Positions 44,588-47,761 of a stretch of 64,000 bases of DNA are shown here, piece by piece. This DNA comes from a bacterium. GTDB taxonomy: Bacteria > Bacteroidota > Bacteroidia > Flavobacteriales_D > Crocinitomicaceae. Under the pieces are notes generated by a model. The model saw only the letters and a program-made list of their open reading frames with translations, was not told the DNA's origin and ran no database searches. Made by a program: the position numbers and the translations under genes. The stretch's first letter is position 1, and each line of letters begins with the position of its first letter. The stretch is taken from NCBI GenBank assembly GCA_024742305.1, contig JANSYQ010000002.1, positions 1 through 64,000 of the forward strand, given 5' to 3'.

Positions 44588-45820
44588 TCAAAAAATGAGC
44601 CGCTCTATCAGCTGATCTCCAAATGCATAGGGAATATACGCCAAATTTGGGATTTCTTTGGTAAGAATCACAGGAGATTTTTTACCGAGTGAGATTGTAC
44701 CGTGTGTATCGGACAAATCCATGGCATAAGCGGCATTGATGGTAAGTGCGTTAAGCGCTTCCTCTGGGGTCATTTTCATTTTTACGCAAGCCAAGGACCA
44801 AACGAAGCTAAGGTTTCCACTTGGTGTAGACCCTGGATTGAAGTCACTTGCGAGTGCCACAGGCAGATCGTTGTCCATTAGCCTTCTAGCATCACCATAA
44901 GGAATAGAAAGGAAATGAGAACAACTTGGTAAAATAGTTGGCATGGTAGACCCTGACTTTAACGCTTCGATATCGGCATCTTCCAATTCCTCCAAATGAT
45001 CTACGGATAAGGCGCCCAACTCTACGGCTTTGGCTATTCCTCCGAGGGCAGAAAATTGATTCACGTGCACTTTGGGTTTGAGTCCAATCTTGATTCCTGC
45101 CTCTAAAATCTCCGCCATCTCATCCACAGAGAAATAGTTGCGCTCACAAAAAACGTCGATGTAATCCGCTAGATTCTCTTCGGCAATTTTCGGTAGCATT
45201 TCGTTGATGATAAGGTCGATATACCCTCGATGATCTTCTTTGAACTCTGCCGGGAAAGCATGCGCTCCCAAGAAGGTTGATTTTATGGCAATCGGACAAG
45301 CTTCCTTCAGTCTCTTGATTACGCGGAGCATTTTCAATTCGGCATCTACCGAAAGTCCGTAACCCGATTTAATTTCCAACGCTCCCGTACCGTAGGACAT
45401 CAATCGTTCTACGCGCTCTTTGGACGCGTCGAACAAATCATCTTCTGACATTTCGGCCAATCGTCGGGCAGAGTTCAATATTCCACCGCCTTTCAAGGCT
45501 ATTTCTTCGTAGGACAAACCATTGATTCGGTCCACGAATTCCTCCTCACGCGACTTGGCAAATACGGTGTGTGTATGTGAGTCGCAAAAAGCTGGAAGCA
45601 CGTACTTTCCTTCCGCGTCGATGACCTCCAAGTCGCGCCAATCGGTAATTCCGCCCCATTCCGACATAGGTCCGTACGCAATGATTTCTCCATCTTCCAA
45701 TGCTAGAAACGCATCTTCGATGATAGGCAGATTTTTCATTTCGGCACCTTTGCGAATCTTTGGTAGATTTTCTCCGCATTGCACCAGTCCTTTAATGTTT
45801 TTGATGAGTGTTTTTGCCAT
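44588..45820 (-). CDS. hutI: Imidazolonepropionase
   Basis: The 410-residue amidohydrolase hydrolyses imidazolone propionate in histidine degradation. Metal-binding 'DSHTHTVFA', 'GALEIKSGYGLSVDAELKML', 'STFLGAHAFP', 'KPKVHVNQFSALGGIAKAVELGALSVDHLEEL' and 'ALASDFNPGSTPSGNL' are all at the expected places. Length is typical. The other hut genes are not in the window; hutI is followed by the TraB/GumN gene, with which it may be co-transcribed. Confidence 0.96.
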   Translation of the reverse strand: MAKTLIKNIKGLVQCGENLPKIRKGAEMKNLPIIEDAFLALEDGEIIAYGPMSEWGGITDWRDLEVIDAEGKYVLPAFCDSHTHTVFAKSREEEFVDRINGLSYEEIALKGGGILNSARRLAEMSEDDLFDASKERVERLMSYGTGALEIKSGYGLSVDAELKMLRVIKRLKEACPIAIKSTFLGAHAFPAEFKEDHRGYIDLIINEMLPKIAEENLADYIDVFCERNYFSVDEMAEILEAGIKIGLKPKVHVNQFSALGGIAKAVELGALSVDHLEELEDADIEALKSGSTMPTILPSCSHFLSIPYGDARRLMDNDLPVALASDFNPGSTPSGNLSFVWSLACVKMKMTPEEALNALTINAAYAMDLSDTHGTISLGKKSPVILTKEIPNLAYIPYAFGDQLIERLIF

Positions 45821-45924
45821 GAGGCAATGTTAATGAAAATAGACTAAAGACAATCAGACTTTAGACAAAAGACCTCGTGCTCTCGAAGTGCAATGATAAC
45901 CCACTTGTTTTTTTATTCGTCAAT

Positions 45925-45954
45925 TTGGTCAATTAAAGAAAATAGGTATCTTTG
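45925..45954 (+). promoter_or_regulatory. Full consensus promoter of tRNA-Leu (TTG-N19-TATCTTTG)
   Basis: TTG (45925-45927), 19 bases, then TATCTTTG (45947-45954), an exact Bacteroidota match; the mature tRNA begins 25 bases later. Confidence 0.8.
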
Positions 45955-45979
45955 CGCTCGCTCTATCAGAGAAAAGTAT

Positions 45980-46061
45980 GCCTGGGTGGCGGAACTGGTA
46001 GACGCGCTGGATTCAAAATCCAGTTCCTTCGGGAGTGAGGGTTCGATTCCCTCCCCAGGTA
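45980..46061 (+). tRNA. tRNA-Leu (anticodon CAA)
   Basis: Acceptor stem GCCTGGG/CCCAGGT (first pair G-U), D-arm GCGGAACTGGTAGACGC, anticodon arm CTGGATT-CAA-AATCCAG, a long variable arm (TTCCTTCGGGA) and T-arm GAGGGTTCGATTCCCTC. The long variable arm and CAA anticodon give leucine (codon TTG). CCA is not encoded. The ORF track translates through it ('WVAELVDALDSKSSSFGSEG'), a known artefact of tRNA-Leu. Confidence 0.98.
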
Positions 46062-46117
46062 CGAAAGTCAGAGTGAGAAATGAGAGTGAGAGCGATCATT
46101 GAAACTCTGACTTTTTT
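46059..46117 (+). terminator. tRNA-Leu terminator; first copy of a 59-bp direct repeat
   Basis: AAAGTCAGAGT pairs with ACTCTGACTTT (11 bp) around ~23 bases and is followed by T. The whole 59-base segment, starting in the last bases of the tRNA, recurs at 46599-46657 exactly 540 bases downstream with one mismatch (46103/46643). Confidence 0.85.
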
Positions 46118-46190
46118 TTCGCTCTCAAACCCCAACTCACATTTTTTTAATTCAACATTTTAGGTAACTTAATTTAGAAACCTACCTACT

Positions 46191-46544
46191 ATGTTTGATT
46201 TTGAAAAACTTACTATTTACAAAAAAGCGAAACTCTTTAATTCACAAATTCGATCATTTATCGACTCCACTCCATTGGACCGTACAACGAAAGATCAACT
46301 AAGACGTGCCTCATTCAGCATTGTTTTGAATATTGCTGAGGGGTCAGGCAGATTTACTAATCCAGATCGGAGGAATTTCTTCGTGATTGCGAGAAGTTCT
46401 GCTTTTGAATGTGTTGCAATTCTTGATATCTTAAAAGATGAGCAGACCTTAGATCAAACACAATATGAAAACTTTTACACGAACGCCGAGGAAATCTCAA
46501 AAATCCTTTTCGCCTTGATAAAAAATCTTAGTGTTAAACCCTAA
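46191..46544 (+). CDS. Four-helix-bundle protein (23S IVS / bAvd-like)
   Basis: The 117-residue product matches the family of four-helix proteins found in 23S rRNA intervening sequences and as the accessory protein (Avd) of diversity-generating retroelements: 'FEKLTIYKKAKLFNSQIRSFI', 'DQLRRASFSIVLNIAEGSGRFTNPDRRNFFVIARSSAFECVAILDIL' (parts: 'SIVLNIAEGSGR', 'ARSSAFECVAILDIL'). No 23S gene, reverse transcriptase or variable repeat is near, so this is a stand-alone copy. It lies between the two 59-bp repeats right after the tRNA. Its own function is unknown. Confidence 0.9.
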   Translation: MFDFEKLTIYKKAKLFNSQIRSFIDSTPLDRTTKDQLRRASFSIVLNIAEGSGRFTNPDRRNFFVIARSSAFECVAILDILKDEQTLDQTQYENFYTNAEEISKILFALIKNLSVKP

Positions 46545-46598
46545 GTATATTCTCAATTTCCTTATGGATGTTTTGGTTCGATAATTGTTCCGCTCCGA

Positions 46599-46657
46599 GT
46601 ACGAAAGTCAGAGTGAGAAATGAGAGTGAGAGCGATCATTGACACTCTGACTTTTTT
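46599..46657 (+). repeat. Second copy of the 59-bp repeat (duplicated tRNA-Leu terminator)
   Basis: It equals 46059-46117 except for one base, and shortly upstream 'GGTTCGAT' (46575-46582) resembles the tRNA T-arm (46040-46047). It can still form the terminator hairpin. Confidence 0.8.
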
Positions 46658-46807
46658 CTTTTATACTCACTCTGAGGCTCAAACTTACTGAGGATCAAAC
46701 CAATTAAACTGAACATAACTTTGCTGAAAGCGCTAGGGGTTATCACAAACTCTCCTTTATTTCACTGTACTTTTCCGTAACTTTCATCTTTGTTCTATCT
46801 TGAACTC

Positions 46808-47761
46808 ATGAAAACACTCCTATTTTTTTGTGTTTTGTTCCTTACAAGAGCTGCTTTCGGCCAAACCGATACCATCAATCAATTGGATGGCAATGGTCTA
46901 AAACAAGGGTATTGGATTCATTATGGAGAAGAGCATCTAGATCAAGGATTTCCTCTCAATGCCATTTATTCAGAAGGCGTATATGTAAATGACAAAAAGC
47001 AAGGTTATTGGAAGAGGTATCATATCAATGGTTCCATACGGCTACTCGGACACTATGAAAATGATAAGCCCTGTGGAGATTACACCAAGTACTTCGAAGA
47101 TGGTACCATCGAGGAGGAAGGTACGTATTGCAACGATAAATATTTCGGAGAACTCAAAAGATACCACCCCAATGGAGTATTGAAGTATCGGTCGAAGTAC
47201 AGTCAAAAAGGAGTAGAAATAGATACCACTTTTTACTATTCGGAAGTTTCAACTGTCCGAAACATGATTATTCATGATTCCGTTATGGGTATCTCACAAG
47301 CGATAAGTTATAATGACTTCGGCGAAATAACTGATTTTACCGTGGAACCATATTCTTGCGAGGAAAAGCCATTTAGACTGAAGAATTTTATTGACACCAC
47401 TCAATCTGTATCTGAAGGTATCGCTGGGACCTATTATTGTATAATGACGTATTCTGGAACGCCTATTTATCAAGAGTTCATTTTAATTATTCACTCAGAC
47501 CTACATTACGAGGTGGTTTCGTATAACTATGAACAATGCTATGGGACGCTACACTCTTTTGAAGGTACAATTACGGATCAAGTAACTGAAATTGAGTTCA
47601 GTGAAAGAGGTCCTTTACCCAAGTACCTCAACAAAGAAAGTTTCGGATTTGAGAGTGTTCCCGTTACGAAATATCGAGACCACCGGGTAACATTTCGATT
47701 TAAAAAAGGAAAATTAAATCCTGATTTTCGGATTCCTAAATCGCCTACATCAGTGAGATAA
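46808..47761 (+). CDS. Secreted MORN/YwqK-type repeat protein with unique C-terminus
   Basis: I use ATG 46808 rather than the upstream TTG at 46790. The 317-residue product has a signal peptide ('MKTLLFFCVLFLTRAAFGQ'), four MORN-like repeats ('GYWKRYHINGSIRLLGHYENDKPCGDYTKYFEDGTIEEEGTY' in parts: 'GDYTKYFEDGTIEEEG') and a ~170-residue C-terminal beta domain of unknown type with 'GTYYCIMTYSGTPIYQEFILI'. It relates in its N-terminus to the larger protein at 29571. Its 3' end overlaps the convergent gene by 17 bases. Function unknown, probably surface-linked. Confidence 0.78.
   Translation: MKTLLFFCVLFLTRAAFGQTDTINQLDGNGLKQGYWIHYGEEHLDQGFPLNAIYSEGVYVNDKKQGYWKRYHINGSIRLLGHYENDKPCGDYTKYFEDGTIEEEGTYCNDKYFGELKRYHPNGVLKYRSKYSQKGVEIDTTFYYSEVSTVRNMIIHDSVMGISQAISYNDFGEITDFTVEPYSCEEKPFRLKNFIDTTQSVSEGIAGTYYCIMTYSGTPIYQEFILIIHSDLHYEVVSYNYEQCYGTLHSFEGTITDQVTEIEFSERGPLPKYLNKESFGFESVPVTKYRDHRVTFRFKKGKLNPDFRIPKSPTSVR

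Follow-up and report, generated by a model that had tools for sequence, protein, structure and literature searches.

A hairpin-flanked S23/Avd-like gene behind tRNA-Leu(CAA) in a member of the Crocinitomicaceae and related units at tRNA and tmRNA 3' ends in Bacteroidota

The closest described systems and the tRNA-Leu(CAA) locus

Proteins of the S23/IVP family are encoded in intervening sequences (IVS) of the 23S rRNA in Coxiella and Leptospira; these sequences carry inverted repeats, and their origin and mobility have been described as unclear (PMC4990558). Insertions in the 16S and 23S rRNA of CPR bacteria contain IVP or GIY-YIG/LAGLIDADG ORFs (PMC11270868); both the protein family and its general habit are already known. 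The unit described here lies in a stretch of 64,000 nt of a Crocinitomicaceae genome (GCA_024742305.1, contig JANSYQ010000002.1, positions 1 to 64,000; hereafter the window, its host genome being G000). It shares with the rRNA insertions the protein family, a place within the transcription unit of a stable RNA, ends formed by hairpins or repeats and a size of 0.4-0.6 kb, and in both cases mobility is proposed and unproven. In contrast to the rRNA insertions, which lie within an rRNA, it adjoins a tRNA or tmRNA 3' end; it is bounded by a terminator-like hairpin in direct repeat, and the same hairpins can enclose other cargo.

The 3' ends of tRNA genes are classic targets of tyrosine recombinases. 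With the islands directed to them our units have in common the insertion at the tRNA 3' end and a tRNA-like tail at the far junction, whereas they measure only 0.5-1.3 kb, lack an integrase and carry a hairpin module at each junction. They resemble integron cassettes (attC hairpins, IntI) in that arrays of cargo are split by hairpin modules of ~130 bp and the cassettes have no recombinase of their own; this likeness is one of layout, and unlike integron cassettes they are anchored to tRNA or tmRNA genes in genomes of which none of ten yielded an IntI above cut-off. The Avd protein of diversity-generating retroelements (DGR; 4DWL, 8UB7) shares the four-helix-bundle fold of the encoded protein, but no reverse transcriptase was found in the host genome of the window. 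In the open-access literature that we searched, the coverage of which is incomplete, no description was found of the tRNA/tmRNA-end hairpin, of its S23 clade or of the arrays.

The anchor of the unit is tRNA-Leu(CAA) at 45980..46062 on the plus strand (ARAGORN; 59 bits with the Rfam tRNA model), which was the sole real match in a permissive Rfam scan of 45500-47300, with no rRNA. A gene on the minus strand (44588..45820), whose label as putative hutI is read from the sequence, lies upstream of tRNA-Leu(CAA) in many members of the genus and served as synteny marker. A repeat search gave a direct repeat of 68 nt (46050-46117 and 46590-46657, 93% identity) with a spacing of exactly 540, including a 59-nt core from 46058 and 46598 with a single mismatch; this agrees with the preliminary description, in which a segment of about 59 bp starting in the last bases of the tRNA recurred 540 bp downstream. 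A near-exact repeat of this length is far beyond chance. The tRNA contributes just ~4 nt (GTAC) to the repeated part, the remainder being mostly a hairpin/terminator module, which we call M.

The left M (46063..46143, plus strand), supported by the direct repeat, a match to the R1 hairpin model and compensatory pairs in relatives, consists of a terminator-like hairpin with T-run (46064-46116) and a complementary CGCTCTCAAACCCCAACTCAC. The right M together with ATACTCACTCTGAGGCTCAAACTTACTG occupies 46603..46692 on the same strand, and its core is identical to the left copy in 58 of 59 positions. A scan of the 64 kb with the model, which was built from relatives, showed two strong places only, of ~58 bits each, at 46065-46113 (58.1 bits) and 46605-46653 (58.8 bits). 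Directly before the right copy there is an att-like tail (GTTCGATAATTGTTCCGCTCCGAGTAC, 46576..46602, plus strand). The sole sizeable gene between the copies is the Avd/23S-IVS-type gene at 46191..46544 on the plus strand, as had been stated before. Short AGACTAAAGACAATCAGACTTTAGACAAAAGAC repeats were seen at 45842-45890, just upstream of the tRNA promoter region.

The S23 clade and the hairpin at tRNA and tmRNA 3' ends

The gene encodes a protein of 117 aa that matches PF05635 (E 1.8e-25) and TIGR02436 above the curated cut-off. Its AlphaFold model is a four-helix bundle (pLDDT 96), for which Foldseek returned 2GSC and 2RLD as the best solved structures, followed by the DGR Avd protein (4DWL/8UB7; TM 0.75-0.78). 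Between the window gene and its G018 orthologue dN/dS is 0.07, values of 0.04-0.16 were obtained for 14 of 15 pairs (one saturated), and 73 of 76 checked ORFs are intact; purifying selection and intact reading frames thus indicate that the S23 protein is functional. A search with PADLOC gave no match that would point to a defence function of the window unit.

Relatives of the gene were gathered by protein similarity alone (at least 50% identity), which yielded 100 distinct loci forming one clade (SH-aLRT 100). In 55 of these loci the S23 gene has a tRNA or tmRNA gene of the same orientation no more than 600 bp upstream, at distances of 70-532 bp, and in one locus the upstream gene is on the opposite strand; of the 18 other S23 genes in the genus, none is near a tRNA or tmRNA. 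The anchors comprise 15 kinds of tRNA (Leu with four anticodons, Arg with four, Lys with two, Glu, His, Phe, Met and Asn) and tmRNA, and at least 15 target changes are required on the tree. Some of the remaining loci are cut by contig ends, lie in tandem arrays or follow tRNA tails. The layout is present in isolates (Crocinitomix catalasitica, L101; Fluviicola chungangensis, L134 and L135; Chryseolinea, L108) as well as in metagenome bins, and is therefore not an assembly artefact. At two loci (L190, L195) an S23 gene of the same clade is convergent to tRNA-Leu(CAA), ~200 bp from the tRNA 3' end.

The hairpin of M is formed by AAAGTCAGAGTG...CACTCTGACTTTTTT with an inner GAGCGAGAGCGA core; directly behind it comes a sequence that is the complement of the 5' arm. 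Its outer stem is kept by paired changes: among 26 relatives 30 cells are changed on both sides, against 9.1 after shuffling and 3-11 when the partner is slid away from the true pairing. Many M copies can also be folded into a long alternative hairpin that would undo the terminator, so that a switch of M between the two predicted structures is possible.

We scanned the genomes of 40 relatives with a covariance model of M that holds no tRNA information (E<=2.2e-5). Fifteen of the 24 matches start 0-7 nt past the 3' end of an intact tRNA or tmRNA gene on the same strand, namely tRNA-Leu(CAA/UAA/GAG), tRNA-Arg and tmRNA; the other nine comprise the second copy of the window, further copies in tandem, some that follow a partial tRNA tail, and a cluster of three with S23 remnants. 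About ten of the 24 are solo copies without an S23 gene, of which the genome of the window contributes one, at its tmRNA, and sites with a tRNA and a single M without the gene occur in G021 and G023. G023 carries near-identical M copies at two different tRNA-Leu genes, and the single S23 gene of that genome falls on a different branch. An apparent solo copy in G001 was dropped on inspection, the match being an A-run only. Both relatives of the gene and solo hairpins are hence met again at many tRNA and tmRNA 3' ends, which supports the earlier suggestion of a minimal element at the tRNA end. Elsewhere in the genome of the window (G000:C10:59532-59581, L259) an M is found behind a partial tRNA-Leu-like tail (TAGTCCTGGGCAC), with a TTCCGATTACTCGGAA palindrome before the tail.

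Cargo and junctions

The M-S23-tail-M layout of the window is repeated at tRNA-Leu(UAA) in another genus, and the same hairpin also flanks cargo other than S23, which further backs the reading as a minimal element. M of Fluviicola measures about 130-150 bp and follows tRNA-Met, -Val, -Arg, -Phe, -Ala and tmRNA. At tRNA-Met we found two ORFs between matching M copies, and at tRNA-Val a DUF6000 gene and GTCATTCCCCAC between two M copies; an integrase is absent from these M-cargo-M units of 1.2-1.3 kb. Longer M arrays are likewise present in Fluviicola. At tRNA-Val, homology between Fluviicola species stops at the tRNA 3' end. Behind it, the DUF6000 unit is found in G178; a GIY-YIG gene is present in G166, there with a tRNA tail and M, and also in G160 and G088; and G142 has neither DUF6000 unit, GIY-YIG gene, tail nor M. 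The DUF6000 gene (80% DNA identity) is located at tRNA-Val in G178 and behind M in a tmRNA-anchored array in G237; this presence at two anchors is the best evidence that cargo may change anchors. M-like arrays with orphan genes (DUF4145, DUF6896 and unknowns) that are not at a tRNA were noted at L308 and L310 of Fluviicola chungangensis, where a junction motif GGTTCGACTTACGAACC precedes the tail.

Small GIY-YIG genes with an intact tRNA on one side and a partial tRNA copy on the other were also observed (L006 2390-1930 in G018, L007 1538-2360 in G021 and L335 320-640 in G166), and L018 of G051 shows GIY-YIG fragments only in the same position. They make up a second family of Bacteroidota inserts that carry tRNA fragments. 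The GIY-YIG units of G018, G021 and G166 share with the M units the hotspots and the form of a small single-gene insert with tRNA 3' fragments; they differ from them by the gene, by a longer tRNA fragment and by a tRNA arm that in several inserts is replaced by a TCCCGA..TCGGGA palindrome.

Among 74 M copies the position of an upstream TTCGA peaks at 21 nt (33 cases) and at 26 nt (nine cases), with four cases at 18 nt and at most one at every other offset. The first peak is the position of the T-loop of the window's tRNA-Leu(CAA), 21 nt upstream of the left M. The nine junctions of the second peak, the right copy of the window and eight others, are non-tRNA by inspection. Since they have the spacing in common, the degenerate GGTTCGAT at 46575-46582, already noticed upstream of the second copy for its likeness to the tRNA T-arm, belongs to a shared junction. 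The last 13 bases of the tail before the right M are identical to the tRNA-Leu(UAA) tail of G035 (13/13), against 9/13 for the tRNA-Leu(CAA) anchor; tRNA-Leu(UAA) of the window's own genome was rejected as donor with just 11/13.

Right-hand repeats are present in 22 of 54 anchored loci, compared with 3% in mismatched pairs. A right-hand tail matching the locus's own tRNA over at least 6 nt is rare (3 of 52 anchored loci), and duplication of the tail is therefore not general. A site shorter by exactly the 540 bases was not seen in any relative, the downstream flanks of which diverge; the sole relative sharing both flanks with the window, G018, is occupied, without the right copy and with a GIY-YIG insert between tRNA and gene.

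Proposed movement and alternative explanations

While the association with tRNA and tmRNA 3' ends and the diversity of the sites are directly observed, the following mechanism is a proposal. Most probably, in our view, the window unit is a tRNA-end cassette of the form M-S23-tail that is moved by a recombinase acting in trans and belongs to a family at the tRNA and tmRNA 3' ends of Bacteroidota. M would take the place of the terminator of the stable-RNA gene and keep transcription termination intact, followed by the cargo, a short tRNA-like tail and the next M. Movement would consist in recombination of the tRNA end, or of a tail, with the tail of a cassette, and with M at both ends the cargo could be lost, leaving a solo M. 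The S23 gene would be read through from the tRNA promoter, and by analogy with Avd and its RNA the S23 protein might bind the M hairpin. Against this reading, M could partly be an ordinary, vertically inherited family of tRNA terminators.

The window unit itself encodes no recombinase, as the S23 gene stands alone between the repeats, and our searches identified no trans-acting one for it. There was no match in G000 to PF01797, the Y1 transposase that a REP/RAYT or IS200/IS605-like system would need, and in ten genomes no protein reached the integron integrase cut-off of 265 bits, the best score in G000 being 106; both enzymes were accordingly discarded as candidates. The host does have tyrosine recombinases. 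The one with this score, an IntI-like protein at G000:C5:18259-19062, belongs to a set of 106-120 bits, all without the middle segment of the integron integrase model, found in 6 of the 10 genomes (G000, G018, G021, G023, G178 and G142). Neither an M nor a tRNA lies near the two loci examined, those of G021 and G018. Candidates for the trans-acting enzyme would be this IntI-like recombinase or the GIY-YIG nucleases, which recur at the same tRNAs in relatives.

The unit may alternatively be the relic of an integrase-borne island at tRNA-Leu that has lost the integrase and most of its cargo, with one gene left between attL and attR. Apart from the preference of tyrosine recombinases for tRNA 3' ends, this is favoured by integrase-like ORFs directly upstream of M-S23, beside tRNA or tmRNA tails of 10-24 nt, at five loci (L144, L106, L132, L186 and L105), their likeness to tyrosine recombinases being judged from sequence. 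One of these loci, L144, is 99.5% identical to the tRNA-bearing L151 apart from its upstream side. We had considered such tails on the left of M at tRNA-less loci to be carried by the unit, and dropped this as a general argument on account of the five ORFs and the L144/L151 comparison; the tails are better read as probable scars of larger islands, which appear to use the same tRNA ends. Yet compact units with the same hairpin recur at 15 tRNA kinds and tmRNA, and the units of 1.2-1.3 kb with other cargo have no integrase either. Also, the long repeat is the hairpin, which exists solo too, so that of the duplicated attachment sites suggested in the preliminary description only the short att-like tail with TTCGA at fixed spacing stands. 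We consider an island relic unlikely.

That M is merely a phylum-wide terminator family of tRNA and tmRNA genes, with the S23 gene as a long-resident neighbour that is read through, would fit the T-run after M, the compensatory changes in its stem, its mostly solo occurrence and the purifying selection on the gene. It accords poorly with the unrelated terminators found at the same tRNA in most members of the genus, the near-identical M copies at two different tRNAs of G023, the unrelated cargo flanked by M and the at least 15 target changes, and we regard it as improbable.

Hardly any more credit can be given to the view that the tRNA end with its terminator was duplicated in tandem on the spot, around an ordinary gene and without any mobility; a tandem duplication had been the other option in the preliminary description. 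Tandem M copies do exist (L233, L240) and the two hairpins of the window are nearly identical, but a recent duplication would have copied tRNA bases as well, and the 58/59 identity stops abruptly at GTAC with different bases upstream; a conserved M beside a tail that is not conserved is ill-fitting for this explanation. Moreover, other genera have the same layout at tmRNA and at tRNAs unrelated to this one, with the gene travelling with M. A retroelement-like process, in which the Avd-like protein helps a reverse transcriptase to copy a tRNA-M-S23 RNA to new sites, would suit the fold and the tendency of homology between related units to stop at the S23 stop codon, but is very improbable, as PF00078 (RVT_1) has no match in the 99.9% complete host genome, in G018 or in G021, which also removed a trans-acting reverse transcriptase from our candidates, and many tails are integrase scars instead.

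On the reading as trans-mobilised cassettes, the hairpin with or without the S23 gene at so many tRNA and tmRNA ends points to a family of mobile passengers that ride on stable-RNA genes and have drawn little notice. It is possible, although less likely than not, that they represent an undescribed cassette system of Bacteroidota anchored at stable RNAs, in which M copies would serve as recombination sites for mobile S23/Avd, GIY-YIG and orphan cargo in integron-like arrays without integron integrase, and of which the IVS and DGR Avd proteins would be offshoots, derived from hairpin binders. The tie between the S23 clade and a conserved hairpin supplies a natural candidate ligand, RNA or DNA, for binding tests, the M-S23 loci provide marked insertion sites and strains for watching gain and loss, and M labels tRNA-anchored cargo arrays in Bacteroidota, where unknown genes collect.

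Away from tRNA loci, the S23 genes of the genus have locus-specific inverted-repeat flanks built of short units of 6-8 nt (L001, L003, L004, L045-L073). In a set of 26 loci that includes the window locus, 24 exceeded the 95th percentile of random positions for inverted repeats and 20 the 99th, which echoes the inverted repeats of the 23S rRNA IVS (PMC4990558) and is as may be expected of IVS-like mobile units. The flanks of the window gene have a weak inverted-repeat score (24), and direct repeats dominate there.
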